38,764 nt of DNA from a virus. Made by a program: the position numbers and the translations under genes. Positions 11,848 to 36,317 of the stretch are shown here, piece after piece. Positions within the stretch are counted from its first letter, which is position 1. Every line of letters starts with the position of its first letter. The notes under the pieces are model-generated. The model saw only the letters and a program-made list of their open reading frames with translations, had not been told where the DNA came from and searched no databases. Location: IMG/VR virus record IMGVR_UViG_3300047552_002153, positions 1 through 38,764 of that record; one strand, given 5' to 3'.

Positions 11848-11875
11848 ATTATACTCCGTTGGGTAGACGGAAATA

Positions 11876-11920
11876 CAATAGGGCGCAGAGGCTAAGAATA
11901 TCTTAGCTTACGCCCTATTG
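11876..11920. terminator. nested inverted repeat, probable bidirectional terminator
   Basis: The outer arms CAATAGGGCG (11876-11885) and CGCCCTATTG (11911-11920) are perfect. Inside them GCTAAGA and TCTTAGC (11891-11907) form a second perfect stem around ATA. On the plus strand TTATTTGT follows; on the minus strand TATTT follows. It lies where the early (+) and late (-) transcription units meet, as expected for a bidirectional stop. Confidence 0.65.
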
Positions 11921-11940
11921 TTATTTGTAAATCGATGCAT

Positions 11941-12090
11941 TTACTTAGGAGGCAGTGTTACTTTTTTAGGTTTACTGGTATGCCAGTGGCCGATGATATA
12001 TGTCACTATGCTGGCCACAATCGGCCAGACAGTGTTGATCACCTGCACTATAGCATTACCAGTAGAAACCACAGCAGTTGAATCTACCAT
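11941..12090 (-). CDS. small membrane protein, 49 aa, holin candidate
   Basis: ATG at 12090 with TAGGAG upstream. Residues about 13-35 (AIVQVINTVWPIVASIVTYIIGH) form one membrane span, followed by a basic tail (WHTSKPKKVTLPPK). The late position, size and basic C-terminus fit a small holin, and it lies at the end of the structural block where lysis genes often sit. No endolysin is adjacent. The role is inferred. Confidence 0.55.
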   Translation of the reverse strand: MVDSTAVVSTGNAIVQVINTVWPIVASIVTYIIGHWHTSKPKKVTLPPK

Positions 12091-13087: not shown

Positions 13088-13099
13088 AATATCCTCCTG

Positions 13100-13369
13100 T
13101 TAAATTGTAGGTTCAGTGTTAGCTTTAGGTACAACTCCCTCATACCAAGCCTGTTCGTCTTCTTTTCCTTCGTTATATACAAAGTAAACCACATTCTTGC
13201 GATTGCCAACCGGCTTATCATTGGCATCAACTCCGGTTTCATTAACATTAATTAGATATTTGGTTACTCCATTTACTTCACCTTCGTTATTGGGGTTGAC
13301 CGAAGTTCCAACGCCGATATAGGTTGCGGCGATATCCGCGAGTAAATCTACTTTTGTCCATGTTGCCAT
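13100..13369 (-). CDS. small tail-cluster protein, 89 aa
   Basis: ATG at 13369 with TAGGAG. The product is MATWTKVDLLADIAATYIGVGTSVNPN... with a beta-rich C-terminus (VVYFVYNEGKEDEQAWYEGVVP). It sits between two adhesin genes with spacers of only 8-12 nt, so it is probably a structural or assembly partner of the fibres. No family recognised. Confidence 0.6.
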   Translation of the reverse strand: MATWTKVDLLADIAATYIGVGTSVNPNNEGEVNGVTKYLINVNETGVDANDKPVGNRKNVVYFVYNEGKEDEQAWYEGVVPKANTEPTI

Positions 13370-13377
13370 AATATCTC

Positions 13378-15654
13378 CTAAGGTTTAAAAAAGTTTAAGA
13401 ATGTTCCGAACCAAGGTGCCTCTACAGGGGAACCAGATATAAGAAAAGTTTCAGGTGCATTTTGGGAAGCATAGTTTGCCGCTTCCCAGGCATCAGATTT
13501 TACTACTGTTGATATTCTCATTTCGTCTATGTATCCGTCATAATAAAAACTCTGTCCTGGATATCCACCAATCCAAACTGCATCCGCTGATGTTGTAATT
13601 GTTTTTGTTTTACCCGTTCCTGATGCTACGAGAGTACCATTACAATAGGCACTCATATTGCCGGATACATTATCATGCCTAATATACCAGTAGTTCCATT
13701 GACCTTTGATCTGTGCAGTTGTCATTGCACCTGAGATACGGTCATAACCACTTGACCCGAAATCAAAGTACCCATTGGAATCATCCCAAGGAACGTGTGC
13801 TAAAAGTAAATGATCTCCGATGGAATCAATTGCACCATATATGGTGGATTGAGCGGGTAAAGTAGCTTTGCCATAAGCCCAGAATTCAAAAGTGCAAGTT
13901 CCACCTGATATTACCCCAGCCGTATACTCTAAATAAGTTGAACTGGCTGCTGTAAATTCTCGACAATGTCCAATTTTTCCGGGATTATCGGTTGTACCAT
14001 GATTAATAAGAGCTGTTGAATTTGATGGCTCTGTCATATGCCAAACAGTGCTGTAATTTGGCCCCCAAACATTATTAAGACCGTAGGTGGCGTTATCAGC
14101 ATAATTACGCACACCATATGCATACATATAATCTGCTTCTACCCAATAATTTGATGAACTTGCATTTTTTGTTCCAGTTACTCTTATTTTTAAAGTGTGA
14201 TACCCGAGAGTTAATACAGCACTTGTATAGAGTAATTGTTGATATATATTGGAGGCATTATATTGATCTACATTGGTTTCTGCACCTCCATCAATTGAAT
14301 ACGCCCCTATTCCCAAATCATTGTTTTTTCTTGCAGATATTTGTATCTGTGTGCCATAAAATCTTATCTGATAATAATTGTCTGTTGTATTGGAATATGT
14401 TCGCAGACCTTGGGAAGCACCAGCGTCGGCATAAGCTGTCCAATTTCCTACAAATTCAAATTGTCCGAGTCCTGTACCTGTTATACCATTATAAGTATAT
14501 TCAGTATTTTTAAGAACTATACAAAAATCCACATCTGTATAATATCCTGTTGATGTAGGATTCTTAGTTCCTGTTATTCTTGCTTTTAATATATGATCAC
14601 CCGTTTTAAGTACCGGGCTTAGGTACATCAATTGACCACGTATCCGAGTTGCGTTTAAGTGGTCAACTAAAGTCTCTGCACCTCCGTCAATCGAATAGGC
14701 CATAATCCCATGACCATCATTCCGCGAATTATAAACCATTATTTGAGTACCATTAAACCGTACTTGATAATAGGCATCGGTCTCAGTGCCATAATGGAAA
14801 CTTCCACCATAGTATTCGTTGTCTGGAGAATATGTACTCCAAGTGCCAACAAACTCATATTGATTAAGCCCAGTACCAGTTGTGGCATCATCTATAACTG
14901 TAGTTGATACCTCTTGGTTATGATACCACATATAAAATGGAGTATCAGTTGCCGATGATACTGATGGCAATCCTACCCAAATTTCAACCCGTGCCACAGA
15001 CACAGGTAAAAATGGATGAAAATCAACTATCTCAAATGGAAGTTCATTTAAACCTTGCGGATCAGAGGTAAAACGTATATCATGTCCTTGGGTCTCTACT
15101 CCGAAAGCGTCAACGGCAATATAGTTACCAAGGGATGATCCATTGTTTGCACCTTTGACAACTATCTTAATTGTATGATTACCTCTTGTTAATTGTGTTT
15201 TACTATACACAATAGTTTGAGGTTGATAAATACCGCTCAAATAAGTGTCAACGTTAGACCGATCAAGCACTCCGTCAATATAAACATCGGCATAACCAGC
15301 ATATGTTGTTGCCCATGTTTTCCAATGAATACCCGTGCCAAAGAATGAAAACTCACAGTAGTCATTTGCATTCGCAGAATAGTGACTGTCATGATTGACA
15401 AACCCATCGCGTGAATCCGTAGCCCACGATCCAGCATAACCCTCGTAATACACTATCGTTGCATAATCATCATTGTACCATTGGATGATCCTGTTCTGCG
15501 GTGACAATGAACTATCGTTATATACCTCGGCAGGGATATTTCCGGTCGTACCATTCCAATGAAGTAGGGTCTGGAAATCAGTAACATCCCCAGTCAGCTT
15601 TGTATGGTCAACGGTAAGCTTGACCATTCTCTCCCATGGATAATTTACAGACAT
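13378..15654 (-). CDS. large carbohydrate-binding adhesin with LamG domain, 758 aa
   Basis: ATG at 15654 with AGGAAG. The N-terminus (MVKLTVDHTKLTGDVTDFQTLLHWNG) resembles DUF2341-type domains, and its partner segment recurs around residue 210. Three repeats of a ~110-residue galactose-binding-like fold follow; their shared features are (Y/F)xGxW near the start, YYQ(V/I)RFxGTQI, a SIDGGAET or VYIDG strand, then LxxGxHxLK(I/A)x(V/I)xGTKN and a VDxxxxY end. The last ~200 residues look like a LamG/concanavalin jelly roll (GTCTFEFWAYGK...WIGGYPG...YDGYIDEMRIS). All of this points to glycan binding, presumably to capsule or LPS. No catalytic residues are obvious. Confidence 0.75.
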   Translation of the reverse strand: MSVNYPWERMVKLTVDHTKLTGDVTDFQTLLHWNGTTGNIPAEVYNDSSLSPQNRIIQWYNDDYATIVYYEGYAGSWATDSRDGFVNHDSHYSANANDYCEFSFFGTGIHWKTWATTYAGYADVYIDGVLDRSNVDTYLSGIYQPQTIVYSKTQLTRGNHTIKIVVKGANNGSSLGNYIAVDAFGVETQGHDIRFTSDPQGLNELPFEIVDFHPFLPVSVARVEIWVGLPSVSSATDTPFYMWYHNQEVSTTVIDDATTGTGLNQYEFVGTWSTYSPDNEYYGGSFHYGTETDAYYQVRFNGTQIMVYNSRNDGHGIMAYSIDGGAETLVDHLNATRIRGQLMYLSPVLKTGDHILKARITGTKNPTSTGYYTDVDFCIVLKNTEYTYNGITGTGLGQFEFVGNWTAYADAGASQGLRTYSNTTDNYYQIRFYGTQIQISARKNNDLGIGAYSIDGGAETNVDQYNASNIYQQLLYTSAVLTLGYHTLKIRVTGTKNASSSNYWVEADYMYAYGVRNYADNATYGLNNVWGPNYSTVWHMTEPSNSTALINHGTTDNPGKIGHCREFTAASSTYLEYTAGVISGGTCTFEFWAYGKATLPAQSTIYGAIDSIGDHLLLAHVPWDDSNGYFDFGSSGYDRISGAMTTAQIKGQWNYWYIRHDNVSGNMSAYCNGTLVASGTGKTKTITTSADAVWIGGYPGQSFYYDGYIDEMRISTVVKSDAWEAANYASQNAPETFLISGSPVEAPWFGTFLNFFKP

Positions 15655-15657
15655 AAA

Positions 15658-17028
15658 TTATGCTTCCTGTGCAATAGCGATAAGTTGCCATTTGTTAAGA
15701 GAGTTGGCTGTGTTATAAATAAATCCAAGATTCAGAATTTTGGAAATTACCGTGGTACTCGGCAAAGGGATTCCACCCGCCGTGTAATTGGTTCCCCAAG
15801 CTATCGACCTTGCCGTACCATTATCTTTTACTCGGATAATGATCTTCTGAAAATTAACGGGAGAGCCACTTGGGTTTGCAAAGGTTACTCCCTGAGCCAA
15901 GGCTGTCACATCAACCGCATCATTGGTATCCGCTGCCGGGGTCACCGTTGCGGCATCTGTTACGGATTGTACCCGAGTTGTTGCGCTGATACCGGTAACA
16001 CCTTGGTCACCTTTAATGCCAGTGACGCCCTGAATCCCTTGAATCCCAGTAACTCCTTGAATACCCTGTATTCCCTGGATACCTGTTGCTCCTTGATCTC
16101 CTTTACCAATTGTAGAAGTGAGATAGGAAGCATGGGTTGTGCCAGCATAATAATAAGTTACTGTCCTACTGGTTGCATTAGCGTTTTGGACAGCCCACTG
16201 CCTTGCAACAAGCCGATCCGTTGTATTGATTGTTAACGGGGCAGATTGAGTATAAGTTGTTGTATAAAGGTCTGTCGTCGTTGTCAATGGATCTGAAACC
16301 GCAGAACGAAATAGTGAAGTTACAGTCCCCGCAGCATCTCTTTTTAATATCTCTGTTGCAATTGTGCTTACAGTACCTCCAACTACCGAGGATGTTTTTG
16401 CCCAAATATAAAAAGTCCAGGTACCAGCTTGGATAGTTGCAACACCTGGGACACCAATAGGGGTTAAATATGGGCTACCCATTTGAAGCCCTGTGGCTCC
16501 TTGAGCATTGCTCACTGTAGCTGTATCTGAATCCTCTGTTCCCGCATCCGGGTTACGGGATAGCACTTCATATCCCCCAATATCTGATGCTGCGTTTTGA
16601 AAATAAAAAGGAGTACCAAATCCACCTATACCTTGCACTCCAGTATAACCCTGGGCTCCAGTTATTCCTTGAATACCTTGGATACCCGTATTACCTTGAA
16701 GCCCTTGAATACCCGTATCTCCCTGGAGCCCTTGTATACCAGTTTCTCCCGTCAATCCTTGAATTCCAGTTTCTCCAGTTAATCCCTGGATACCGGTATC
16801 CCCAGTGAATCCTTGGATCCCTGTGATTCCTTGGATGCCCTGAATCCCCTGGATACCTGTAGCTCCTGCAGTCCCCCAATAGGGTAAATCTCGCCAATAG
16901 GTTATTCCGTCACCAATTTTAAAAGTAAACGTATCTAATTCATACCCGTACTCCCCTTGGGCAAGTAAAGGATTCGTAAATGTCCAGTTGTCCGCTAAGT
17001 CTCTTCTTAATTGTATAATATTAGCCAT
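15658..17028 (-). CDS. collagen-like tail fibre with Mtd-type N-terminal domain, 456 aa
   Basis: Start taken as ATG 17028 (MANIIQLRRD). The first ~50 residues (IIQLRRDLADNWTFTNPLLAQGEYGYELDTFTFKIGDG) match the conserved N-terminal attachment domain of phage tropism determinants and tail fibres. A long collagen-like region (GIQGIQGITGIQG and variants, about 55-130) and a second short one (about 315-350) surround a beta-rich middle domain. It overlaps the upstream 112-residue gene by eight bases. No reverse transcriptase or template repeat is present, so it is not a diversity-generating retroelement target despite the Mtd-like N-terminus. Confidence 0.75.
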   Translation of the reverse strand: MANIIQLRRDLADNWTFTNPLLAQGEYGYELDTFTFKIGDGITYWRDLPYWGTAGATGIQGIQGIQGITGIQGFTGDTGIQGLTGETGIQGLTGETGIQGLQGDTGIQGLQGNTGIQGIQGITGAQGYTGVQGIGGFGTPFYFQNAASDIGGYEVLSRNPDAGTEDSDTATVSNAQGATGLQMGSPYLTPIGVPGVATIQAGTWTFYIWAKTSSVVGGTVSTIATEILKRDAAGTVTSLFRSAVSDPLTTTTDLYTTTYTQSAPLTINTTDRLVARQWAVQNANATSRTVTYYYAGTTHASYLTSTIGKGDQGATGIQGIQGIQGVTGIQGIQGVTGIKGDQGVTGISATTRVQSVTDAATVTPAADTNDAVDVTALAQGVTFANPSGSPVNFQKIIIRVKDNGTARSIAWGTNYTAGGIPLPSTTVISKILNLGFIYNTANSLNKWQLIAIAQEA

Positions 17029-17359
17029 TTGCGTCACCACCGTCTAAAAGTTGTATCGGTATGTAAACCGAATTGGCAAATCCCCCATCAGCGAGGATAT
17101 CAGACACCGGACCTTCAGGACCAGTAGCTCCAGGTATTCCTGGAACTCCTTGTATCCCTTGTATCCCTTGCGCTCCTGGAGGACCTTGAGGTCCTGCGAT
17201 TGAGCCTCCAGACCCAGCAATCGCTGATTCCTGTCCCACTAAATATAAATATAAATCACTGAACCACCTTTGCCAGATGTGGTTCAGTGTGTTTTTATCA
17301 GCATCCGTCAATGGAGTTTTAGTTGACGGTGGGGATAGTTTAGTTGGTAGAATATTCAT
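17021..17359 (-). CDS. short collagen-like protein, 112 aa
   Basis: Start taken as ATG 17359, immediately after the tailspike stop at 17362; a longer frame from 17398 overlaps the tailspike by 37 nt and is less likely. A helical N-terminal part (ADKNTLNHIWQRWFSDLYLYLVG) precedes about 35 residues of G-x-y repeat (GPQGPPGAQGIQGIQGVPG). The end (PIQLLDGGDANG) overlaps the next gene. No Shine-Dalgarno is visible, so it probably relies on re-initiation after the tailspike. It may be a trimeric stem or adaptor for the next fibre. Confidence 0.6.
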   Translation of the reverse strand: MNILPTKLSPPSTKTPLTDADKNTLNHIWQRWFSDLYLYLVGQESAIAGSGGSIAGPQGPPGAQGIQGIQGVPGIPGATGPEGPVSDILADGGFANSVYIPIQLLDGGDANG

Positions 17360-17361
17360 AA

Positions 17362-19410
17362 TTACGGAGCAGTCGTGAAGCTGAATACTCCTGTCCATTT
17401 CCCGGCTATGCCGTTATTTTCGACACGTACTCTCCAGTACCAGAGGTTACCATCCCCCCATCCTGCATAAGCGTACAAAGGATCGGCGGTAGTGGTATTG
17501 ACGGTTATGGTAGTAAAATTCACATCCTGTGTTGCTTGCACCCGATATACTTCCGCCCCTGTAACTGCACCCCAATAAAGGGTGACGTTATTAGCAACTA
17601 ACGTGGCACCATTTAAAGGTAAACTCAAAGTTGCCACCGGGTATATCGGATAGGATACAGACATAGCATTTGATCCTCGATATCCGTCTATTGGGAAATT
17701 TAAATAATTAACATATTTGTAATCAAATATAGTAGTATTTATATCCGCTTGTAATCTCTTCCATTGGATATCCCCGGTAGGAAGAATAAACATCATACCC
17801 GGATGAGCCGTTAACACGTTAAGAGAAGGATCCCAGATAACATCACATCCAAAACCTATTTGTTTTGTAGGACGTAATTCCGATGGGATCGGGTGATTGG
17901 TGGTCTGAAAATATACCTCAGCTCCCGCTGCTTTTCCATAATTATAGTCTGTAGAAATAGTGACTATCGTCGGCTCAATAGCCGGATCCGCTGGAGGAGT
18001 TTTCTTCCAGTTAATGGTTGTATGTTCATCATCAGCATAATAAAACTGAGGATCATCAACCGTGGCGTATTCCGCTGCAACGTTCGCACTCGTAATAATA
18101 GTTGCGGAAGATGTACGAGACAATTCCACCCAACATGGAGGATCGATTGTCATATCAAGTATTAAAGTAATAGTATCATCAGCTGACATCGCATAGTCCT
18201 GAGCACCCCGTAACCGTAATACTGCCTGCGGCAAGGTAACTCCTGGAGCCTGATCCTTCAGTACTACACCATCATCGGAGTATAACTTTACAACGGATCC
18301 TGTTTGCCACTGGTAAGTGTCAATGCTTTGGATAGTTGTAGAACCAGTTATATGTGTATAGTTGCCTGTAGAATTAAGTGCGATATCCGCGATAGCCGCC
18401 GTTTCACCATTGCTACTTTCCTGGAACCGAGTATGCATTATACCATTAAACGCATTATCCTCTAAAGTAGTTACTCGAACATCAAGTGCGGTCGTATCAG
18501 TCTGCAACGTGGTAATATCCATTCCTAATGTACTCTGATACCATCCAGGAGTCGTGCCATCCATCCAGACGTTTTTGATTTCAGCGTATGCTCCCGTCAC
18601 ATTTGCTGCAAATACCGGCTCATCCCCGGTTCCAAAGAAGAAGTGGCGTTTGGTATCTGATACAGGAATTATAGGATTTAGGGTAGGTTTGAATCCGCTC
18701 CACTTCAGGATAGCATCCTCAAAGATTACAGGGATTGTCAAATTGAACCCTGGATCCGATGCTAAAGTAAACGTACCATTATCAAGGATGATCCCGGTCA
18801 AATTCGCAGTAGCATAGTTAATAGCTGATTGAAACGCCCCAGCATCATCGGATCCATCCGCTTTGGCTCCAAACCATCTTACATTCACATTCCCTGAGAA
18901 CATCCGGTGCCATCTACCACTTGTAGAGGTGGTCGGTTTAATTATGATACCATAATCTTCATCGGAAGTGTTTGCAGCATCCCAGTAAAAGATATCCCCA
19001 CCCCCATCACCAGGAGTGTAGTACCCTTGTACCAGAACGAAAGCTGCACTATTTTCCGATAAACTTCGCAAAGAGGCTATGGATGCTACAGTAGTAAATG
19101 TACCAAACGCATCCGTATATCCTACACCATTCCGTTGCCAAATCACCACGCCTTCAATTGTACTTGGATCAAATATGGTTGCTCCATATCCATCCGTGAA
19201 GATCATAGTATATGCACCAGAGTCCTGCTTAATCGTTGCTCGTCCTTCGGAATCGAAAACCACCGGATTTGAGTTCGGAGCATCGTTTTCGTCATATGTA
19301 ACTTTTGGCGTGGTCGTTCCAGATTCAAAAGTATAGAGTAAACCCCCGGCATACGGGCGACCGAGTCCATTAGATTCTTGCCAAATTGGTAGAGGACTGT
19401 AGAGTGCCAT
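17362..19410 (-). CDS. tailspike with beta-helix-type entry motif and Fn3-like C-terminus, 682 aa
   Basis: ATG 19410 chosen because AAGGAGAAG lies upstream; the frame extends to 19497 but that part overlaps the preceding gene. The N-terminus (SPLPIWQESNGLGRPYAGGLLYTFESGTTTPKVTYDEN) is a typical virion-attachment domain of podovirus tailspikes. GRWHRMF followed by VRWFGAKADGSDDAGAFQSAINYA (about 190-215) is the entry motif of pectate-lyase-like beta-helix tailspikes. The C-terminal ~90 residues (LSLPLNGATLVANNVTLYWGAVTGAEVYRVQ...) look like a fibronectin type III domain. It probably binds and may cleave surface polysaccharide; catalytic residues cannot be assigned from sequence alone. Confidence 0.75.
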   Translation of the reverse strand: MALYSPLPIWQESNGLGRPYAGGLLYTFESGTTTPKVTYDENDAPNSNPVVFDSEGRATIKQDSGAYTMIFTDGYGATIFDPSTIEGVVIWQRNGVGYTDAFGTFTTVASIASLRSLSENSAAFVLVQGYYTPGDGGGDIFYWDAANTSDEDYGIIIKPTTSTSGRWHRMFSGNVNVRWFGAKADGSDDAGAFQSAINYATANLTGIILDNGTFTLASDPGFNLTIPVIFEDAILKWSGFKPTLNPIIPVSDTKRHFFFGTGDEPVFAANVTGAYAEIKNVWMDGTTPGWYQSTLGMDITTLQTDTTALDVRVTTLEDNAFNGIMHTRFQESSNGETAAIADIALNSTGNYTHITGSTTIQSIDTYQWQTGSVVKLYSDDGVVLKDQAPGVTLPQAVLRLRGAQDYAMSADDTITLILDMTIDPPCWVELSRTSSATIITSANVAAEYATVDDPQFYYADDEHTTINWKKTPPADPAIEPTIVTISTDYNYGKAAGAEVYFQTTNHPIPSELRPTKQIGFGCDVIWDPSLNVLTAHPGMMFILPTGDIQWKRLQADINTTIFDYKYVNYLNFPIDGYRGSNAMSVSYPIYPVATLSLPLNGATLVANNVTLYWGAVTGAEVYRVQATQDVNFTTITVNTTTADPLYAYAGWGDGNLWYWRVRVENNGIAGKWTGVFSFTTAP

Positions 19411-19411
19411 A

Positions 19412-21091
19412 TTATTTCTTCTCCTTGCGTTTATTACTATTTGTATCAAGCATATTTTGAAGCGTTGTTGTAGTAAGAGCTGCGGCTCCTGCAGCATTCA
19501 TGGGCGTTGATAATTTATATGGAGCAGCCTTAGATCCCCCTACACGGCGAGTTAAATCAGCCGTCGTTTTATATTTTAAATTCTCTCCCATATTCTCCAT
19601 AGCGGAAGAAAGTCGCCCTTTTCCTGCATATTTGAACGCCCCCTTCCCGATGAACGGAGCTGCGAATAACCCCGCAGATACTATAGGATTATGATGTTGA
19701 AGAGGGAGCGCAAGATGTGTTCCTAAAAGCCCGAGCCCTGCTACTGCTGTTTTAAACTCTAACTTTTGTTTCTTAGGTAAAGATTGTAATACATTCATAG
19801 CAGTCGCATGTGCCATCGCTTGTTTATTCATTTCAGCATTAACTTGAGTATATTCTGGAAATATCTCTTCCCCTTTTTGCTTAACATCTGAGACTAACTT
19901 ATTATAAATATCCACTTTTATCCGTTCAGCCGGAGCAGCTCCCGCTTTTACAGGCAAAGGTACCAACTCTTTCAGCCCTCTCTTAGTAATACCTGAACTT
20001 TTAGGAAGCTGCAAAACTTCTTCTACAAAGGTATTTAACCTATCAGCAGTAACAGGGTTATGGGTTAATATTTTGCTGCCCGCTGTCCATTGTCCTTTTG
20101 CATTTTTAGTCTGCTGAGAAATTTCATTTGAATACTCTAATTGTTTAGCTCGATTTTTTAATTCATCAATAACCTTTTTTGCTTCCGGAATACGTTCCGT
20201 TGTTTTTATAAAACTTGCCGGTTGAAACCCATGCCCAGCTTCTGTTAAATTATCAAATAAAATATTACTATGCATGACTTTCCATTTATCAAATGTTGCT
20301 TTTGCTGGAGCTAAATTCTTTAAAGTTTTATTAAAATCCCCAGGGACTAATCCTTGTTTTATTACATCTAAAACTTCAGGAGCCGTAACGGCTTCCAGTG
20401 AAGGATCTAACTCCCCTTTAAGTTGGGATTTAAGCTTTATTTCAGGGAGTGCTTTTTTTAAATTTAAATTTTTTGATAATAATGCGTCACTTGCTTTAAT
20501 CATTGCCGATCCGACAGGCTCTGTTAATTTCGAAGCCCCCCGAACCATAGAATTAAGAGATCCTCCCGGAAGAGTGGAAGCTACATTCAGCGCATCCCCA
20601 GTGAATCCACGAATAGATTCTGGAAGTTTGTTATATGTAGGTCCTACTGTACTCGCTACTGCAGCCACAGGAGGAGTGATCATTTCTTTTAACGATTGGC
20701 TGGCCGCAGGAAACGCTGACCCCAAAGCACTCAGGGTCATGTTAGGAATAGCTCCGCCAATCTGTCCTGCCAATCCCCCTAAACTGCGGGTATACGCCCG
20801 TATAGGATGTCCGGATGTCCAGAGATCCGATACTTCCTCCATATTTTTTACTTGGCGTTCTCTTGCAGCAGGAATTCCTAATCCTCCACTAAATGGATTA
20901 CCAAACCAAGCGGGCTTCGTAGCAGCAGTAGTCTCGGATTTTTTTAAAGCTTGCGCCCGAGCCTCTGCATCCACAGTGTCTTGATGAGTGGCTTGAATAT
21001 TCCGTTTTCGTAGAAACTCATCAGGATCAAATCCAGCAGGTTGGGAGTTTTTACGACTAGCTAAAAATTTGTCTGGATCAAATTTGCTCAT
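19412..21091 (-). CDS. ejection (internal virion) protein candidate, 559 aa
   Basis: ATG at 21091 overlapping the previous stop, with GGGGATG upstream. The N-terminus carries two copies of FDPD(K/E)FL(A/R) (residues 4-11 and 20-28), a motif I associate with internal or ejected proteins of podoviruses. A hydrophobic, alanine- and glycine-rich central stretch (IPNMTLSALGSAFPAASQSLKEM...PVAAVASTVG) could insert in a membrane, and the C-terminus is basic. By position it corresponds to P22 gp16, injected with the DNA to form a channel. Sequence similarity to gp16 itself is not claimed. Confidence 0.6.
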   Translation of the reverse strand: MSKFDPDKFLASRKNSQPAGFDPDEFLRKRNIQATHQDTVDAEARAQALKKSETTAATKPAWFGNPFSGGLGIPAARERQVKNMEEVSDLWTSGHPIRAYTRSLGGLAGQIGGAIPNMTLSALGSAFPAASQSLKEMITPPVAAVASTVGPTYNKLPESIRGFTGDALNVASTLPGGSLNSMVRGASKLTEPVGSAMIKASDALLSKNLNLKKALPEIKLKSQLKGELDPSLEAVTAPEVLDVIKQGLVPGDFNKTLKNLAPAKATFDKWKVMHSNILFDNLTEAGHGFQPASFIKTTERIPEAKKVIDELKNRAKQLEYSNEISQQTKNAKGQWTAGSKILTHNPVTADRLNTFVEEVLQLPKSSGITKRGLKELVPLPVKAGAAPAERIKVDIYNKLVSDVKQKGEEIFPEYTQVNAEMNKQAMAHATAMNVLQSLPKKQKLEFKTAVAGLGLLGTHLALPLQHHNPIVSAGLFAAPFIGKGAFKYAGKGRLSSAMENMGENLKYKTTADLTRRVGGSKAAPYKLSTPMNAAGAAALTTTTLQNMLDTNSNKRKEKK

Positions 21092-22941: not shown

Positions 22942-23829
22942 TTAAGCTAATCCACTCACTTGATTTGATGCTCCACTATCATATACCGAAGAAGGCTGTC
23001 GGGTAACTGCCGGAGCTGAAGATCCTGCTTTAGGGTACCCGAGTAATCCTGCTAAAGTTTGCCACCCCCCTTGCAATCCTCCAAATCCTCCAGCGAGATT
23101 ATTAATACCCGTCTGAGCCGCTTGTCCTACTCCCATGTAACCAGCAGCTTGGGCGTTGCCCATATTACCCCATTGTCCTGCCATATTTTGCCCATAATTG
23201 CTGGCTAAATTTGACAAATAATTTCCAGCATTTACCCCCATATTTGCTAATCCGGACTGAGCAGTATATTGATTTTGCGCTTGCTGATTACGGGCAGTAT
23301 ACTGGTTCATTGCATTACTCATCCCAGCAGTGGTACCAAATTCATACTGCCCTTGATTAAAAGCACGGTTCTTATTATACCGGTCATAGGCATTCCCATA
23401 CTCATTTGATGCAAAATTCTGACCGTAGCGTTGCAGTGCTTTTTGAGTAGCTCCGGATAACTGTCCACCAGCCGCTGCCGCTCCTGAATTTAAACTATTA
23501 GCTCCCTGTTGCATCCGGAACTGATAGCCTGGATCCGTTTGGAATTTAAATTGATCATTTGGAGCTTGCCCTATTTGATAGTTATAAGGGTCTACCTTAT
23601 AAGCTCCACTATTTACCATTTGATCCAGGGTTGATAAATTCCTCATCCCCGTATCATATGTTGGTTGCTGATATCCTTTCGCCTGATTATAGGAACTGGT
23701 TAAAGCATCCCTAGCTTTACCCGCAGCTTTTTGCTGTGCCCGAGAAGCCAACGCGGAAGTTACTCCGCCTACTATTCCTCCAGCTACTACCCCAGCCCCA
23801 GGAATTATTCCATCTAATAAGCTAGCCAT
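22942..23829 (-). CDS. DNA transfer (ejection) protein, P22 gp7-like position, 295 aa
   Basis: ATG at 23829 with GAGGAG. A hydrophobic glycine-rich N-terminus (LLDGIIPGAGVVAGGIVGGVTSALASRA, about 3-32) is followed by FQTDPGYQFRMQQGANSLNSGAAAAGGQLSGATQKALQRYGQNFASNEYGNAYDRY. This is a highly recognisable signature of phage DNA-transfer proteins: DPGYxFR...G...L...A...G...SG...KAL..YGQ..A..EY..A..R. The rest is Asn/Gln/Gly/Ala low complexity. It acts in the ejected channel through the cell envelope. It follows the gp10-like gene, as gp7 does in P22-like late regions. Confidence 0.75.
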   Translation of the reverse strand: MASLLDGIIPGAGVVAGGIVGGVTSALASRAQQKAAGKARDALTSSYNQAKGYQQPTYDTGMRNLSTLDQMVNSGAYKVDPYNYQIGQAPNDQFKFQTDPGYQFRMQQGANSLNSGAAAAGGQLSGATQKALQRYGQNFASNEYGNAYDRYNKNRAFNQGQYEFGTTAGMSNAMNQYTARNQQAQNQYTAQSGLANMGVNAGNYLSNLASNYGQNMAGQWGNMGNAQAAGYMGVGQAAQTGINNLAGGFGGLQGGWQTLAGLLGYPKAGSSAPAVTRQPSSVYDSGASNQVSGLA

Positions 23830-23831
23830 AC

Positions 23832-25358
23832 TTAACTCCTCTCGGCTTCGATTGCAGCCCGAGCTCCGGTTAAAACTATTTTTACAGGATCCGTAATAGT
23901 TAAACGATATACTCGGTCTCTGGAATAACCAAGCCTGGTTGTTCTTGCACGAGTAAATGTTTTCCCTATCGCCCCTATATTCAGTTGTCTGTCATTGCCA
24001 AAAGTTTTGCCACCATCATCCGAAAACGAAAGATTAATATGCGGCCTTGACCCTTGACCCACATTCAATCCAACACCGCGTTCAAGATCAACTTCGAATT
24101 CGGAATGAAACAAACGTAGTCGATCTTTTCGGATATGAGGTCCTGTGCGCTGTCTACGGATTGGATCCCCATTATCCGTATAGGTATTAAGATCAAGCAC
24201 ATATAAATTTGTATTTGCATAATCCGCAACAAACACTTTATCAAAACAGAATGTGCAGTAGTCTCCCCGATGCCGTTCCGCTACGTTTTTATTTGCATTC
24301 CAGTAGCTTCGTTCATGCCACATATCTGTATCCACATCATATACTAATGTACGATTTCCGGCTGTAAAATTCAACACGTAATACGTGTGACCCTCTTGCT
24401 GATAGCAGTACCCTTTTGCATCGGATATGCTCGACATCTGCGAAATTACATATTCAATCGCATGGGTACTTATCCGTTTTGGCTGATAACTCGTGGCCAT
24501 GTAAACTATACCTTGCCCCACGTTATCGGATCCTAACCAGAAAATTTTATCCCCCAGTGCAGCATTTGACCATGCAGCAGCGATACCTATATCCAAGAAT
24601 CCTTGTTGTATCCGCTGAAACTGGTTGTCATAGTTTCCGGTATTGTACCAAATTTCAGTTGTACGAGGTCCAAATAACCAAATTTCGTTATTGATCTTTC
24701 CAATGCTCAGGATATTATCCGGAGTACCTTCTGCAGTGGCGTAACTTAATAAATCCCAACTGTTTCCATCTCTAAGATAGCTCCAGAAGAATCGACCACT
24801 ATTGATCTCATTGCAAATGAAAAATCCATCTAAAGTAATTGCATGGGTTGCGCTTTTGAATCCACCATCCACTAAAGATTCAACGTTAATTATTGCTCCG
24901 GATCCATTAACTGAAGTAGTTGTTTTATCTCCAGTGGTATACCCCCGCCCTTTTGCAACTATCGTTACTCCAGCTTGGGCAATTTCTCCTCCATCATTAA
25001 TTGCAAATACGGACACGGTACAGGCGACTCCATTTACAGGAGTTGCTAAAGTAACTATATCCCCGACACGATAATTTGTTCCGCCATCGGTAATCGCTAC
25101 AGTTTCCACCATATTGTTGTAATTAATAATCTGAGTCAGTGTGTTGGCAAGCAAGTCATATATCCACCCATCCTGCCCATCTACCAATAGTAATTGTGTC
25201 TCAGTTTCAGTAATAGCTACCGGTCCGGCTACCGTTCTAATTTGTCCTCGCTCTAACCAGGAAGCATCCGCAAATATTTCGTAGAATCGAGTTCCTACTA
25301 CGCTGAACATCCGGTCAAGCGATGAAGAATAAAGAGCTCTATAATTTCCTGATGCCAT
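23832..25358 (-). CDS. gp10-like tail protein, C-terminal portion of a split gene, 508 aa
   Basis: The ATG at 25358 shares one base with the preceding stop (TAATG). The product begins directly at the segment RALYSSSLDRMFSVVGTRFYEIFADASW and contains repeated propeller-like strands (LLLVDGQDGWIYDL, DGFFICNEINSGRFFWS, NEIWLFGPRTTEIWYNTGN). This matches the P22 gp10-type packaged-DNA stabilisation / tail hub family from about residue 60 onward. The family N-terminal segment (GGSYxxRS...NxYPE...TPGL) is missing here. It is encoded separately at 28008-27835, upstream of two inserted genes. A lone domain without its N-terminus would be unusual, so the two pieces probably assemble. Confidence 0.75.
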   Translation of the reverse strand: MASGNYRALYSSSLDRMFSVVGTRFYEIFADASWLERGQIRTVAGPVAITETETQLLLVDGQDGWIYDLLANTLTQIINYNNMVETVAITDGGTNYRVGDIVTLATPVNGVACTVSVFAINDGGEIAQAGVTIVAKGRGYTTGDKTTTSVNGSGAIINVESLVDGGFKSATHAITLDGFFICNEINSGRFFWSYLRDGNSWDLLSYATAEGTPDNILSIGKINNEIWLFGPRTTEIWYNTGNYDNQFQRIQQGFLDIGIAAAWSNAALGDKIFWLGSDNVGQGIVYMATSYQPKRISTHAIEYVISQMSSISDAKGYCYQQEGHTYYVLNFTAGNRTLVYDVDTDMWHERSYWNANKNVAERHRGDYCTFCFDKVFVADYANTNLYVLDLNTYTDNGDPIRRQRTGPHIRKDRLRLFHSEFEVDLERGVGLNVGQGSRPHINLSFSDDGGKTFGNDRQLNIGAIGKTFTRARTTRLGYSRDRVYRLTITDPVKIVLTGARAAIEAERS

Positions 25359-25930
25359 TAGAAACTCACCTTTAGTTGTAATTCGCCTTTATCATCTTTA
25401 CTAATTGTATAATCCTTAGTACCGTAATTACTGAATCCAGCCCCAGCAAATATCGCGTGGCTCAACTCACAATGCACAAAATATTCTTTGGGCAAGTATT
25501 CTATTTTCCCTTCCCCATGCTTAAACAGCAACCTTTGCAGCCACCCGGGATAATCCAACTCTTCAGTTTGTTCATAGATCCTCCAGAGCTTTGCAAAGAA
25601 CTCCGTGCATCCATTTACTATAATTACGGATGCTGTTCGATCATTGATATAAACTTTCCCGGGCAATAGATCAAAATCAATCCATTTCTTAATCAGCACA
25701 TCTGAATCCAGCCAAATCATATTTGGTTGTGCTGCGGCCTGATTCAACCTAATAATATCCGACATAGCCCTGTAATCATTGTTGCGAGGCTTATGGTGAC
25801 TATAGGTAATAAGCATATAGTCCACTGTCGCCGGAAGCTTATTCTTCGCCTGGGCTATGCATTGCTGATAAATGGGACGAAGCCCATCATCATATTGCAC
25901 AACGTTAAAGTATTTCGTAGATGAAGGCAT
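25358..25930 (-). CDS. glycosyltransferase-like protein, 190 aa
   Basis: ATG at 25930, overlapping the adhesin gene by 26 nt. MIWLDSDVLIKKWIDFDLLPGKVYIND contains the DxD signature (D-S-D) of GT-A fold glycosyltransferases in the expected hydrophobic context. The surrounding sequence resembles small-domain sugar transferases (NDYRAMSDIIRLNQAA before it, and a late EYFVHCELSHAIF). The protein is short and may be a minimal or degraded catalytic domain. It lies inside the interruption of the gp10-like gene with its stop coupled to the second half. A role in modifying host surface glycans is possible, but the acceptor is unknown. Confidence 0.55.
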   Translation of the reverse strand: MPSSTKYFNVVQYDDGLRPIYQQCIAQAKNKLPATVDYMLITYSHHKPRNNDYRAMSDIIRLNQAAAQPNMIWLDSDVLIKKWIDFDLLPGKVYINDRTASVIIVNGCTEFFAKLWRIYEQTEELDYPGWLQRLLFKHGEGKIEYLPKEYFVHCELSHAIFAGAGFSNYGTKDYTISKDDKGELQLKVSF

Positions 25931-27833
25931 GCTTAGTTTCCGTTATTTCATTGCCACTGTGATCTGTAATCGTTAACGTTACATCCGTCCATCTTGCCGG
26001 TACAGCTTCCATACCCGTAATAGGCAAATCCCCTGTAGTCAGCAACCAAGTATCTTTATTCACTAAATCGTAAATATGTTCCGTTTCTTTATCAATGGTG
26101 ATGCAGCCGATCCCATCCCCGAAGTCCCACTCTAACTGTTTATAAGGGATAGCTACATCTGCATAAAATTTTATGGTCATGCGCTTCTGATTAGTTGACG
26201 CTGCAATATTTATGTATGGAAATCCTTCTGATACTGATTGTCCATAATGATTCTTATGATAGGATCTCATAAGAGTAGAGACATCTTCGACTACATCCGT
26301 GTACGGAGGCTCCGTACCTGTATTCCCCTGGGATTTAAGGATATGATGGGAAATCTCATGGATCGTTGCTCCGAAATCCGCTTCATTAGGCGGCTCAGGG
26401 ATCTCTTTAAAATTGGCCAGCAATGTCGCGTCGCTATAAACATATACTGAAGTTGTAGCGGAATAGCGATCCGCTATGTATACCCCCCCTGAAACAACTG
26501 ACCAATTATCAAATACGTAACCGGTATTCGCAATCGCATAAATAGCCTGAGTATAGGGATAATAAACCGTGATAACCGGTACTGGAGGTAAAGTAGTACC
26601 ATTGCCATCATTTGTCATTGTTAATAAATACGTAGGTTTGGTGAGGAATTTAACCACCAAAGTATGATCGGATAGTATGGGTTGCCGAACGCCGGGTGAG
26701 AATGAGGTTCTGCCTTCAGGACAAAACATCTCTCCTTCCGTATCGTATTGCCAGCTATAACAGTAATTTCCAGGATCTGCATACATCGTGAAACTGTAAC
26801 CATTTCCATTCAGTACATATGTAATTCCAGGTTCTACGATATCCCCATTTGCGATTATTGACCCTCCACCCCCATCTACGGAGTCCGTAATTTCCCAATA
26901 TATGACAGGAGCAGGAGTAGTAGGTGCAGCAGTTGTTGGGCTTTCAGTTGTGGTGGTTTCACTATATTCCGTATACCATACGTCATTATACGCAGCTTCC
27001 CCGGATCCACCGAGTAGATAACTAATCCCTAACGTTCCAGAAGGGACAGACGTAACTAATTGAGCATAGGCTCTTGCCTGGTAAGTAACACCAGAGGTAG
27101 CCAATTCCCATAAAATTCCGTCCTCTGAAACCCATGTATAATTGCTCACCGCATCAAGATAGTCCCGCCCGGAAGTAAAAATAAATCGGTGTCCATCATG
27201 TCCAACTACGGAGTCTTGTTCCGCCCCCCATTGGGAAGTATAAGGTATCCAGGATGTGCCATAATCATCCGAGTAGTAATTATTAGTAGATCCACTAATA
27301 ATAACCAATCGACCCCAGGCTCCAACCATGCAACAGTTTCGTATTTCCGCTGGTAAAGAAGTTACTTGAGTCCATGCAGCTCCATCTACGGAGTACCATA
27401 CTTCATTCGATTTAGCTTCAGGACCGTCGTTATCATTACCTCCTGCAACCCAGATAGTTCCATCATATGCGGTATACGCAAATGCATCCCTTCCTGTCCA
27501 AATAGTGGAAGTAGTAACTTGTGTCCAGCTTATACAATCATCCGAAACCCAGACGTCATTAAGGAATGATCCGCCTGCACTACCTCCGAATACATAATAT
27601 TTGCTATTTACATATACAAAACCAAAGAATGAACGGGCTGACCATTCCGCATGTTCTTTGGCTAATTCCCAAGTTATTCCTAAATCATCACTTCTCCATA
27701 TATCATTTACGGCTGCTGAAGTAAATCCACCAGCTACCCACATATACGTACCGTCATAAATAGCACGATGGCCTATACGAGCCGCCCATGACGTATTCGG
27801 ATTTATTTCATACCAGTCAGCAGTAGCGGTCAT
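25905..27833 (-). CDS. large adhesin: kelch-type repeats, InlB-like repeat, PKD-like domain, 642 aa
   Basis: ATG at 27833, two bases after the preceding stop. Residues about 1-285 form kelch-type repeats, each with a YxFGG or WVAGG strand and a (D/E)VWxSxDxxxWTQ strand. A threonine/proline linker (TTTTESPTTAAPTTPAP) leads to repeats of divergent InlB type (GYVFDNWSVVSGG), then HEISHH (an HExxH-type pattern near residue 500) and a PKD-like end (LEWDFGDGIGCITIDKETEHIY). It looks like a secreted or virion adhesin. It is inserted between the two parts of the gp10-like gene. The kelch domain may bind glycan; protease activity is unproven. Confidence 0.7.
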   Translation of the reverse strand: MTATADWYEINPNTSWAARIGHRAIYDGTYMWVAGGFTSAAVNDIWRSDDLGITWELAKEHAEWSARSFFGFVYVNSKYYVFGGSAGGSFLNDVWVSDDCISWTQVTTSTIWTGRDAFAYTAYDGTIWVAGGNDNDGPEAKSNEVWYSVDGAAWTQVTSLPAEIRNCCMVGAWGRLVIISGSTNNYYSDDYGTSWIPYTSQWGAEQDSVVGHDGHRFIFTSGRDYLDAVSNYTWVSEDGILWELATSGVTYQARAYAQLVTSVPSGTLGISYLLGGSGEAAYNDVWYTEYSETTTTESPTTAAPTTPAPVIYWEITDSVDGGGGSIIANGDIVEPGITYVLNGNGYSFTMYADPGNYCYSWQYDTEGEMFCPEGRTSFSPGVRQPILSDHTLVVKFLTKPTYLLTMTNDGNGTTLPPVPVITVYYPYTQAIYAIANTGYVFDNWSVVSGGVYIADRYSATTSVYVYSDATLLANFKEIPEPPNEADFGATIHEISHHILKSQGNTGTEPPYTDVVEDVSTLMRSYHKNHYGQSVSEGFPYINIAASTNQKRMTIKFYADVAIPYKQLEWDFGDGIGCITIDKETEHIYDLVNKDTWLLTTGDLPITGMEAVPARWTDVTLTITDHSGNEITETKHAFIYEIL

Positions 27834-27834
27834 A

Positions 27835-28008
27835 TTATGATTCCAAATTGGTAAAGAGTATAAGTCCGGGTGTTGGGATTAAAATGAGCTTTACATCATT
27901 ATTCCCAGTGGGTTCTTCCGATACTTCAGGATACCAATTAACGGTTTCCTGCCCATCGGCTGCAATGCTGCGACCCTTATAACTTCCACCTAAGAAATTT
28001 ATATCCAC
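27835..28008 (-). CDS. gp10-like tail protein, N-terminal fragment, 57 aa
   Basis: The GTG at 28008 overlaps the stop of the 88-residue gene by one base (TAGTG); an AGGG lies eight bases upstream. The product reads DINFLGGSYKGRSIAADGQETVNWYPEVSEE, then KLILIPTPGLILF. This is the conserved N-terminal segment of P22 gp10-like proteins: GGSYxxRS, then Q.xVNxYPE, then TPGL. Those proteins normally continue with RGLYxSSxGxLFxVxGxxxYxI, which is exactly where the separate 508-residue gene at 25358 begins. The frame ends in a clean TAA, not a frameshift, so the fragment is a discrete short protein. Confidence 0.7.
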   Translation of the reverse strand: MDINFLGGSYKGRSIAADGQETVNWYPEVSEEPTGNNDVKLILIPTPGLILFTNLES

Positions 28009-28274
28009 TATTTTTGCCCTAGTTGTGCGATTAAATAGTCCAGTTTCCGATTGATATCTGCATCTATCTTATTCAATTTACATTCATTATCCGTGGTCTT
28101 CTCTTTGACCGTAGCCAAAGAAGTACTATTGGTAATGGCATAGGTTACAGCTGTACTTAATCCCGCTAATACGATCCCTGCTGCAATATAAAGTACCGTC
28201 AGAGCCCTACTTATGGTCAAAAACGTCGCTTTACACAGAGGGGGAATTTCTTCGGTTGTTGATGGTTCAGTCAT
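28008..28274 (-). CDS. membrane protein with coiled-coil tail, XhlA-like, 88 aa
   Basis: ATG at 28274 with AAGGGAG. One transmembrane segment (ISRALTVLYIAAGIVLAGLSTAVTYAIT, about 21-48) is followed by a charged C-terminal helix (VKEKTTDNECKLNKIDADINRKLDYLIAQLGQK) with heptad spacing. This layout, inverted relative to classical XhlA, is common in phage holin-associated or spanin-like small proteins. It is the better lysis candidate in the late block along with the 49-residue protein at 12090, but a structural tail role cannot be excluded given its neighbours. Confidence 0.5.
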   Translation of the reverse strand: MTEPSTTEEIPPLCKATFLTISRALTVLYIAAGIVLAGLSTAVTYAITNSTSLATVKEKTTDNECKLNKIDADINRKLDYLIAQLGQK

Positions 28275-28296: not shown

Positions 28297-29025
28297 TTAT
28301 TGATAACTCCCTGTAAGTATATTGAATGTTCGTTTCGGTAACAATGCTGTATCCGTCTTCATGTATGAAATTGTGTGATTTGTTCGCATGATAGCCGCTT
28401 TAGTCTCGTTGGCTTTATCATAGATAATTTGATCGATTTGCTTTCCATACTCTGGCGCAATCTCCACAGCCAGATTATATGATAAAGCACTTTCATACCC
28501 TGGAGGCATATCGATATCCTGAATCAAATTGGTAAACTGAAGAATCTGATTCCAGGAAGACAGTCCCAGGGAACATGCTTGAGAAGGATATGGATACAAA
28601 GTAATCGTCCCAAGCGGAAATTTGTTATCGTAGAATAAGTAAATAGGATACGTAACCGTAAGTTGTTTTAGAAAAATTTCCTGATACTTATCATTAGGCA
28701 CGATTTCTAGTTGATAGTCATACTGAAAAGTATTTAACCCCGAAGGATTATAGCGTACAAATGCTCGTACGATCTTCTGCGGGCGAACGGTATCAATATC
28801 ACCCCCTGGTCCAATGGTATAGACCCCCGTAGTCGGTATCAATGGAAACAACTCATTCATGTACCCGTAGAGCATCAGGGATTCATTATTCCATTGCCCG
28901 ATCATCATGTTCAACACTGAAAATGCATCAGCGGCTTCAGCGGAACTGGCTGTTTCACTTGTCTGGGCAACTCCGATTAATCTTAGAGCCCGGTTGATTA
29001 TATTCAGTACTGACTGTTGTGCCAT
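28297..29025 (-). CDS. P22 gp4-like head completion / tail accessory factor, 242 aa
   Basis: ATG at 29025 with TAAGGA. The beginning SVLNIINRALRLIGVAQTSETASSAEAADAFSVLNMMIGQWN is the characteristic start of P22 gp4-type accessory factors (A-L-R-L-I-G...A..AL..LN.M...W). Later segments (PQKIVRAFVRY...YPIYLFYDNKFPLGTITLYPYP and MPPGYESALSYNLAVEIAPEYG) also follow the family. The protein binds beneath the portal to seal the packaged DNA and form the tail neck. It lies upstream of the gp10-like parts, as in P22. Confidence 0.85.
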   Translation of the reverse strand: MAQQSVLNIINRALRLIGVAQTSETASSAEAADAFSVLNMMIGQWNNESLMLYGYMNELFPLIPTTGVYTIGPGGDIDTVRPQKIVRAFVRYNPSGLNTFQYDYQLEIVPNDKYQEIFLKQLTVTYPIYLFYDNKFPLGTITLYPYPSQACSLGLSSWNQILQFTNLIQDIDMPPGYESALSYNLAVEIAPEYGKQIDQIIYDKANETKAAIMRTNHTISYMKTDTALLPKRTFNILTGSYQ

Positions 29026-29035: not shown

Positions 29036-29704
29036 TTATTCCGGTTGCGGTTGCTTGAGTAGATACTCATGCATGTTACCCTTAAATTGTATCAGCCCTG
29101 TATGCGTAAAATTTATGTTCGGCTCAATCCACATTTCTCCACCAGCTTTTTGCCACCGGCGACAGAAGACTATGTCCTCGCCATACCACATATTATCATC
29201 CGGATAGACCATTCCAAGATCAAAGAAATTATACATCCCAATATGATCTTGGCGGACTTGATCCGAAGTGAGTATCTTTTCAAATACCGAACGAGATAAG
29301 CACCCTAATCCTACAGGCACCATATCCGCCTGGACTAATCCGTCTTTGACTACCGGTCTCCCAGTATTGTCGGAATTAATGATACACGGATACTTTTCAT
29401 CCCCTTGCAATTTACACGGATAAACTCCAACTACAAATTCTTTGTCGCGGTTGACGAGCTTCAACATAGCATCATCATCAAACCCAACATCCCAGTCGAC
29501 AAATACCATTTTGTCGGCTCCGGATTTGAGAAATAGATGACTACAAAGATTTCTTGATCGGGAAATTTGGCAATCGTTAAAGTTGAAATAAACTTTAACC
29601 GTGTGGCCGGAGTCACGTAGAATATGACTATTCTTCAGAACTGCTTCTGCAGTTTCGATGAATATTTTCCGGTCGCCCGAAGTTACCGCTATAAATATGT
29701 TCAT
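29036..29704 (-). CDS. glycosyltransferase-like protein, about 222 aa
   Basis: The start is uncertain: the frame opens at 29758, but MNIFIAVTSGDR at 29704 looks like the natural beginning and lies after a hairpin (29721-29740). Neither has a clear Shine-Dalgarno. MVFVDWDVGFDDDAMLKLV contains an acidic DxD-type metal site, and GEDIVFCRRWQKAGGEMWIEPNINFTHTG resembles the C-terminal GEDxxFCxR...G...H motif of GT-A enzymes; phage copies of this type are known near capsid genes. The substrate is unknown. It may glycosylate the virion or the host surface. Confidence 0.65.
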   Translation of the reverse strand: MNIFIAVTSGDRKIFIETAEAVLKNSHILRDSGHTVKVYFNFNDCQISRSRNLCSHLFLKSGADKMVFVDWDVGFDDDAMLKLVNRDKEFVVGVYPCKLQGDEKYPCIINSDNTGRPVVKDGLVQADMVPVGLGCLSRSVFEKILTSDQVRQDHIGMYNFFDLGMVYPDDNMWYGEDIVFCRRWQKAGGEMWIEPNINFTHTGLIQFKGNMHEYLLKQPQPE

Positions 29705-29720
29705 TGTGTGTAGTTTAACC

Positions 29721-29740
29721 GGAGGTGATTGCTCACCCCC
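29721..29740 (-). repeat. hairpin with GCAA tetraloop upstream of glycosyltransferase
   Basis: Read on the minus strand, GGGGGTGA and TCACCTCC pair over eight positions (one G-U) around the loop GCAA, a stable GNRA-type tetraloop. It lies just before the preferred ATG at 29704 and contains a purine-rich stretch that could be a hidden Shine-Dalgarno, so it may limit translation of the enzyme. Alternatively it is a weak terminator after the small head gene. Confidence 0.5.
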
Positions 29741-29764
29741 GGCTACCCCTATCATCACAACAAC

Positions 29765-34697: not shown

Positions 34698-36317
34698 CTA
34701 ATTGCTCATCCACGAATCCGACCCACCTTCGCGTTCCCTACGCCCAAATGTATAAGTGATTGGCGAGTGTGATTTTCCAGGTTCCGCCCACTTGTATTTC
34801 GGATCCGCCATCCCCGCATACATTATCCGTAGAGTGTCGCTCATGTCTTTATATTTCGGATGTTCGGCCTCGGACTTCTCTTCCAATCTATGGTTCCGCA
34901 TAGACTGAATTAAGTTGACACATGCAGGATCGATGTATAAATTACTATGATTAGTTGCGGACGTATCCAATAAGATATTGACTTCCATATCTTTAATGAT
35001 ATTCATCCGCTGCAAGTCAATCACATTCACCGGTGGACACTCGAAACTCAACCCGCCGTTCTCATGCTTCAGAAACTCCTCAACGATACCTGATGTAGAA
35101 TTCGACCATATTGCGACACCGCCCGACCCTGTCGCAAAGCGTGTATCTATGAATCGTGCTTTCATTTCCAACCCGAACTCTTTCTCTCCACCCCGATGCA
35201 TAAACTTCGTTGCTAAGTCCTTAATTGTTCCAGTGTAAAGTAACGTGGTACGCAGTTTTGAATAGTAGTCGCTGAAATCATCATAGGAAGGATACTCCGC
35301 ATAAACGTATCGAATCATTTCCCCATACTCATCCGGGAAATGCGCCATCCATAAACAAGCAGGGTGATACTTTTGTGCCGGATCCATCGCCATGAAGAAA
35401 TTTGCTTTGGATTTCAACTGCAATAAATCAAAGTGCCGAACATGTCTATCCTCGTTGAACATCGGATAGATCTTCCGCCCCGCCATAAGAGGCTCACCTA
35501 ACCAGACATTATCATACTCCCATCGCCTATGAGCAAAATCATTCTCACGGTTCTTCTTGGCTTCCGGAGTCAAATACGCTTCAACTGGATTCCCATCTTC
35601 CCCCACCTGCAGGATTGGCTTGCCTTCAGCATCTATCCTGACGTTACCCTTTTCATCTACTTCCTCTTTGTAAAACCCTTCAATATCATGGGAGTTGATC
35701 TTCTTTACAATTGCATCTTTAGGCGGAGTAACTACCCAACGTTGATACGTTGGGTCATCCTGATAGCGGGTATTGAATGAAATCAGGATCTCGGAACCCG
35801 GGGCACGTATCGTCGGGATCAGGTGTTTCCAGGAATCCTCGGAAACGTTTTCAGCTTCTACTACTCGGGCAAGGGTGATACCCTCCATCGATTTCAGGTT
35901 ATGGGGATCCCGATATAACCCTGCAAAACAGAACAAAGACCCATTGATGCAGGCTATCTGGTCATCCCGGAACACCCATTTCTTGCTTAACCCCAGCTCG
36001 AAAATTCTATCCTTGATCGTCTGGTATACTGATCTTTTTATGGACGTCATTACTTCTCGTCCATACAGGATACGATGGGGCTTCCGCAACGATCTTTCGA
36101 TCAATCCGGTTTTGATCCCGTATCCTCTTCCTATGTCTTTTGCTATCGCTTTTATGTCCGCTTCGGTATACTTCGGATCATACAGCATCGCCAGCAAAAG
36201 ATCACAGTGGATAGTATTCCAGTCCTTTCCCGCATTACGACCTCCGTAAATCACTTTGTATCTGGAGGGCTCCAACAGGAATAGATATGGTTGGGGGATA
36301 TCGATTACAGCATCCAT
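34698..36317 (-). CDS. terL: terminase large subunit, Sf6/PBSX-type (Terminase_3)
   Basis: 539 residues. Walker A is VIYGGRNAGKD (residues 22-32), Walker B ITLARVVEAEN (about 147-157), followed by SEDSWKHLIPTIRAPGSEILISFNTRYQDDPTYQRWV, the highly conserved coupling region of this family. The C-terminal nuclease has FFMAMDPAQ (D312) and ARFIDTRFATG (D391). An odd feature is Asp32 where the P-loop normally has Ser or Thr after GK. An acidic hydrophilic insertion (about 219-246) separates the domains. This class usually packages headfuls from a pac site, consistent with the circular assembly. The ATG overlaps the previous stop by one base (TAATG). Confidence 0.92.
   Translation of the reverse strand: MDAVIDIPQPYLFLLEPSRYKVIYGGRNAGKDWNTIHCDLLLAMLYDPKYTEADIKAIAKDIGRGYGIKTGLIERSLRKPHRILYGREVMTSIKRSVYQTIKDRIFELGLSKKWVFRDDQIACINGSLFCFAGLYRDPHNLKSMEGITLARVVEAENVSEDSWKHLIPTIRAPGSEILISFNTRYQDDPTYQRWVVTPPKDAIVKKINSHDIEGFYKEEVDEKGNVRIDAEGKPILQVGEDGNPVEAYLTPEAKKNRENDFAHRRWEYDNVWLGEPLMAGRKIYPMFNEDRHVRHFDLLQLKSKANFFMAMDPAQKYHPACLWMAHFPDEYGEMIRYVYAEYPSYDDFSDYYSKLRTTLLYTGTIKDLATKFMHRGGEKEFGLEMKARFIDTRFATGSGGVAIWSNSTSGIVEEFLKHENGGLSFECPPVNVIDLQRMNIIKDMEVNILLDTSATNHSNLYIDPACVNLIQSMRNHRLEEKSEAEHPKYKDMSDTLRIMYAGMADPKYKWAEPGKSHSPITYTFGRREREGGSDSWMSN

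Follow-up and report, generated by a model that had tools for sequence, protein, structure and literature searches.

In this study, we analysed one entire IMG/VR virus record of 38,764 bases, here called the window, in which a tail gene of the P22 gp10 family is divided between two open reading frames (ORFs) with a putative adhesin gene in the gap. We consider it probable that this arrangement is an inherited, functional split of a P22-gp10-type tail-tube protein whose pieces reassemble in trans. From profile matches and gene order, the head and tail genes lie on the minus strand in a P22-like order, running from terminase, portal, scaffold and coat through a small protein, adaptor and gp10 to the ejection proteins and then fibre-type genes. 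Within this order, and all on the minus strand, a 242-aa tail adaptor (gp4-like; 28297..29025; phrog_12985, E=7e-50; phrog_637, E=2e-11) is followed by an 88-aa ORF with a hydrophobic segment and weak family matches (28008..28274), whose stop is overlapped by the GTG start of the 57-aa N-terminal piece, gp10-N (27835..28008). The insert then comprises a putative adhesin of 642 aa (25905..27833) and a 190-aa protein (25358..25930), after which come the 508-aa gp10-C with the predicted remainder of the beta-propeller and the C-terminal domain (23832..25358) and, directly 3' of it, a 295-aa DNA ejection protein (22942..23829; phrog_598, E=1e-23). At the junction of gp10-N and the adhesin, TAATATG (27831..27837, minus strand), the stop and the ATG are separated by a single nucleotide. 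ORFs, coordinates and the junctions TAGTG, TAATATG and TAATG were all recovered as an earlier note on this DNA had described them. The gene order flanking the split gp10 is that of intact relatives, where an adaptor homologue lies immediately upstream of gp10 and an ejection-protein homologue comes next after it.

Two further features of the head-tail module were observed. The terminase large subunit (34698-36317, minus strand) is matched by known terminases over its first ~274 residues only and seems longer than these, its C-terminal part giving a weak match to dCTP deaminase (PF22569, E=0.005) below the cut-off. Just upstream of the adaptor, many relatives encode a phrog_1574 protein with conserved DxD-type and GEDxxFC motifs, found in the window at 29036-29758 and at locus L171 at 11233-11958 (both minus strand) as well as at L106, L130, L144, L009, L010 and L015, and its motifs suggest that it is possibly a GT-A-type enzyme encoded within the head-tail module.

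Both pieces match the profile phrog_578 (head closure Hc3, equal to P22 gp10; 486 positions), gp10-N at positions 5-55 with E=6.5e-5 and gp10-C at positions 59-472 with E=5e-97. Proteins of phrog_578 are usually encoded as single polypeptides, whereas here two ORFs lie 2.5 kb apart. In virions the family is known as a hexamer located between the adaptor and the needle/ejection proteins, a position with which the gene order here agrees. Aligned with the intact gp10 of phages P26218, DSL-LC05, ctfPj964 and PAE2 and of the nearest relatives (L106, L130, L121, L144 and L173), the two pieces placed end to end lack no residue. The assignment of the 57-residue product to the conserved N-terminal segment of gp10, made in the earlier note together with the proposal that the 508-residue product begins where this segment ends, is therefore borne out, and intact homologues do not begin at the start residue of the 508-residue product. 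The motifs GGSYxGRS, NWYPE and TPGLxLF of intact gp10 are retained in gp10-N, and a tblastn search with this piece against 50,697 phage records matched 8 records, every match lying within gp10 genes, including that in phiAX1, which was inspected individually. No further gp10 gene was found in the window record or in the record of the second split phage discussed below. As a separate observation, gp10-C carries an extra in-frame domain of ~80 residues at about residues 83-165 (24870-25110), of the YRVGD..RGYTTGD type, which is absent from four intact phage homologues and from the second split phage and matches virion-structural and head-decoration families (phrog_6005, E=3e-6; phrog_9703, E=4e-4).

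The gp10 of a second phage, IMGVR_UViG_3300049893_000558 (G001; loci L133, L171 and L172; 24,505 bases), is cut at the same residue. Its ORFs follow each other in the order 57, 578, 803 and 220 aa, then the 426-aa gp10-C; the 57-aa ORF ends in PTPGLKLFTTV before its stop, and gp10-C starts with MAYGNYRTLYS, where the window has MASGNYRALYS. Between the two phages the N pieces are 72-73% and the C pieces 59% identical. The inserts differ in size, with 4.8 kb in G001 against 2.5 kb in the window, and in content, since a 578-aa PKD adhesin, an 803-aa depolymerase-like protein (with a weak, C-terminal phage-depolymerase match) and a 220-aa protein stand where the window encodes the kelch/InlB adhesin and the 190-aa protein. 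The junction of gp10-N and adhesin in G001, TAAAATG, again consists of a stop, 1 nt and an ATG. The 88-aa ORF of the window (28008-28274), with its hydrophobic helix, is absent from the equivalent place in G001.

In the gp10 tree, the two split forms branch together (100/100) from within the intact forms (100/99), so that the split is a derived state and has been inherited rather than generated by an assembly error. Since both records are uncultivated and metagenome-derived, an assembly artefact or chimeric contig might be suspected, but the stops and starts at both junctions are clean, the flanking gene order is conserved, and the same cut recurs in a phage that is only 59% identical and carries another insert with a common adhesin domain, which renders an artefact barely credible. 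The simplest history is that gp10 was split once, before the two lineages diverged, and that the insert was later exchanged while the C-terminal domain of the adhesin was retained, the exchange being read from one comparison between two split phages that are both metagenomic contigs.

We surveyed 216 loci with a gp10 homologue, drawn from viral contigs, bacterial genomes and phage records. The split site is crossed in one frame at 204 of these: 197 loci encode the N-terminal segment and the C part in a shared frame, and 7 more lie on contigs that end only after the frame has crossed this site. The other 12 consist of loci truncated by a contig end, drafts that are divergent or frameshifted, and a pair of overlapping loci from G001, which is thus represented twice and is the only other split contig in the survey. 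A search for relatives with an unsplit gene, as the earlier note had proposed, thus yielded 204 loci. It should be noted that the collections omit records very near the window, so same-split close relatives may exist unseen. Single-protein scans of viral contigs with gp10-C, the adhesin, the 190-aa protein and the coat protein returned no close relative, and G001 surfaced only through the DNA pattern VNWYPE[VILM] and then again through two-sequence alignments. Three records in which the gp10 match covers two annotated features (phiAX1, ctkAd229 and CBW1004C-Prop1) proved unsplit on inspection, and at L096:6679-7654, where the N and C parts of gp10 lie in two overlapping frames of a low-coverage MAG draft, a frameshift is likelier than a split. 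In the literature searched we found no published split gp10 and no naturally split propeller; as far as this literature shows, the split-gp10 arrangement is previously undescribed.

Both pieces are under selection. Between the window and G001, gp10-N shows a dN of 0.23, a dS of 1.33 and therefore a dN/dS of about 0.17, and it is the most conserved of six segments compared, with dN values of 0.38 for gp10-C, 0.50 for the ejection protein and 0.66 for the adaptor, in all of which dS is saturated. Its mean identity to intact homologues is 0.367, against 0.372 for intact pairs at equal C-part identity. These figures indicate ordinary purifying selection rather than a remnant, and suggest that the two pieces of gp10 continue to be produced and to cooperate. 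It could be argued that gp10-C alone is the tail-tube protein, as it contains most of the propeller and in both phages has its own conserved start, MAxGNYRxLYS; it might then fold without gp10-N, which would be a dead remnant or might have acquired another role. A remnant is contradicted by the low dN/dS, the 72% identity and the highest conservation among the compared segments. Co-option retains some probability, but the motifs kept in gp10-N are those of intact gp10. We regard this explanation as unlikely, though it is the most serious of the alternatives considered here, and retain that of two cooperating pieces.

Upstream of gp10-C, Shine-Dalgarno (SD) sites are found in both phages, AAAGGTGAG with -6.9 kcal/mol before the ATG in the window and TAAGGA with -5.9 kcal/mol in G001, to be read at consensus level against a background with a median of -2.9 and a best tenth of -6.6. 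The first insert gene has no SD of note and in both phages starts one base after the stop of gp10-N, a spacing which suggests that stop-restart coupling drives its translation. The earlier note had left open whether the locus encodes a split tail-hub protein or a splicing system. In the latter case, an intron- or intein-like element carrying the adhesin genes would rejoin the halves at the RNA or protein level, in line with their adding up to a complete gp10. However, no Rfam ribozyme was detected at gathering scores in either genome stretch, and the insert proteins of neither phage contain an intein domain, in agreement with the lack of an intein motif stated before. The window insert is coding from wall to wall and leaves no non-coding room, direct repeats able to excise it occur at chance level only, with no pair flanking both junctions, and in both phages, whose inserts differ, each end is delimited by in-frame stops and starts and an SD precedes gp10-C. 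Rejoining is consequently highly improbable. The split tail-hub alternative is favoured instead by G001, where gp10 is divided at the same point around another insert, and by the large number of unsplit loci.

The same junction could also permit fusion of gp10-N to the adhesin through frameshifting, resulting in a tail-anchored adhesin. In both phages exactly 175 nt separate the start of the adhesin from that of gp10-N, with the same relative frame, the stop is followed by 1 nt and an ATG with a weak SD, and the adhesin frame is open upstream for 15 codons in the window and 7 in G001. Yet no recognisable slippery site is present, the spacing is explained by stop/restart coupling, and the domain common to both adhesins is at the opposite, C-terminal end, leaving such a fusion with a small chance of being correct. 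In our preferred reading, the two gp10 pieces would be translated separately, gp10-N from a start that is coupled to the upstream stop or closely follows it, and gp10-C from its own SD site.

For a structural view of the cut, we used the nearest intact relative, L106, whose C part is 44-48% identical to that of the window and whose AlphaFold model has a pLDDT of 90. This model aligns with the solved chains of Pan3, P22 gp10, Sf6 gp8 and Pam1 with Z scores of 33-37 (36.6 for P22 gp10, 8eap). The cut corresponds to L106 residues 51-56, a turn between strands 44-50 (GLKLFCT) and 57-62 (IRGCYV), so that strands 37-41 and 44-50 precede it. Dozens of unrelated propellers, among them RACK1 and the virginiamycin B lyase Vgb, align to L106 residues from about 41 to 398, which places strand 44-50 within the propeller; gp10-N is therefore predicted to comprise an N-terminal arm along with the propeller's first strand, and the aligned ranges point to a pairing of strand 44-50 with the last blade. 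In most propellers, N-terminal strands complete the last blade in a 'velcro closure' (PMC5456268), and gp10 is described as a propeller lining the tail tube (PMC10386132). On the basis of the model, the 57-aa gp10-N would probably supply the propeller-closing strand in trans.

The adhesin of the window carries a kelch beta-propeller in its N-terminal half (PF24681, E=1e-18, 67.7 bits against a cut-off of 50), an InlB-type repeat at residues 402-478 (PF18998, E=5e-8, 33.2 bits against 23.6) and a C-terminal domain at about residues 487-642. Of the kelch/InlB/PKD architecture proposed earlier, the kelch and InlB-type parts are thus confirmed above the Pfam cut-offs, while Pfam finds no PKD domain in the 642-aa protein, only in its 578-aa counterpart in G001. 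The two adhesins have only their last ~150 residues in common (residues 487-642 against the 578-aa protein, E=4e-17, 31% identity, BLASTP). No phage match was obtained for either adhesin, and a comparison of the C-terminal domain with phages returned a single tail spike hit at E=0.8. A variable front joined to a common C-terminal domain is the pattern of receptor-binding proteins; the common domain probably docks to the virion, and the putative adhesin would sit on the tail. The 190-aa protein, previously labelled a glycosyltransferase, contains a DxD-like motif (WLDSDV), which is insufficient for this label: no Pfam, PHROG or solved-structure match was found, NCBIfam gave nothing beyond chance, no relatives appeared in phages or viral contigs, and a single-sequence structure model reached a pLDDT of 37. 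It may be GT-A-like, which is unproven. As for the notion of a receptor/serotype cassette, an exchangeable receptor cassette agrees with the same split and other insert in G001, while the term 'serotype' is unproven. The gp10 insert is also not the sole host-binding module, since a second tail set lies downstream (12122-19497, minus strand) with ORFs of 711, 460, 758 and 321 aa that include depolymerase-like, collagen-like and lectin-like proteins.

We propose a model in which gp10 was broken, in an ancestor common to the window phage and G001, in the turn after the first propeller strand, and adhesin genes were inserted into the gap. The two pieces would most likely come together again through non-covalent contacts, gp10-N bringing the N-terminal arm and the 'velcro' strand and gp10-C the rest. 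The insert would be exchangeable, its first gene encoding an adhesin with a common C-terminal domain and a variable N-terminal part, kelch in the window, and PKD together with a distinct beta-rich region in G001. That the 57-residue peptide closes the propeller and the gap forms a heritable socket for swapped receptor genes, the adhesin perhaps docking on the hub, is put forward tentatively, as a proposal that is close to evenly balanced and leans slightly towards doubt.

By sequence, the protein belongs with P22 gp10, Sf6 gp8 and the needle-head or stabilisation proteins of Pam1 and Pan3 (Hc3, phrog_578, PF11134), with which it has in common its place between adaptor and ejection protein and, judging from the intact relative L106, probably also its fold. 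By analogy with the P22 family, its role in tail assembly would be the same. The members of that group are single chains, in contrast to the window, where the cut precedes the second propeller strand and the gap is filled with receptor-type genes. Closure of a propeller blade by a strand of another polypeptide has a parallel in a model of Utp4, whose second propeller is proposed to have its last blade completed in trans by Utp8 (PMC5456268), although these are eukaryotic ribosome assembly factors with no split gene. A review of T4-like phages (PMC2988022) ties split genes to mobile elements, likewise with one ancestral gene in two parts and DNA between them; no endonuclease or intron is seen here, and the cargo consists of host-binding genes that vary by phage. 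Other podoviruses carry cargo at the gp10 locus, with an esterase after gp10 in DSL-LC05 (L002, 5208-5771), a glucanotransferase before it in phiAX1 (L252, 685-2505) and a collagen-like fibre after it at L173 (L173:6023-7273). In these, the cargo adjoins an intact gp10, whereas in the window it sits inside; with fibre, esterase and glucan-modifying genes adjoining intact gp10, the locus seems to accommodate host-interaction genes in general.

The family is thus that of P22 gp10, and the novelty lies in the arrangement, in which an essential tail gene is divided and an exchangeable cassette occupies the gap. Across a large group of short-tailed phages, gp10 closes the head and contributes to the channel through which DNA leaves, and one would expect an interruption of its gene to be lethal. 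The split has outlasted divergence of the C half to 59% identity while the inserts were replaced, and host-range genes would thereby have a stable point of insertion within an essential virion gene. At the same time, the split gp10 provides a natural test of propeller ring closure by a separate peptide.
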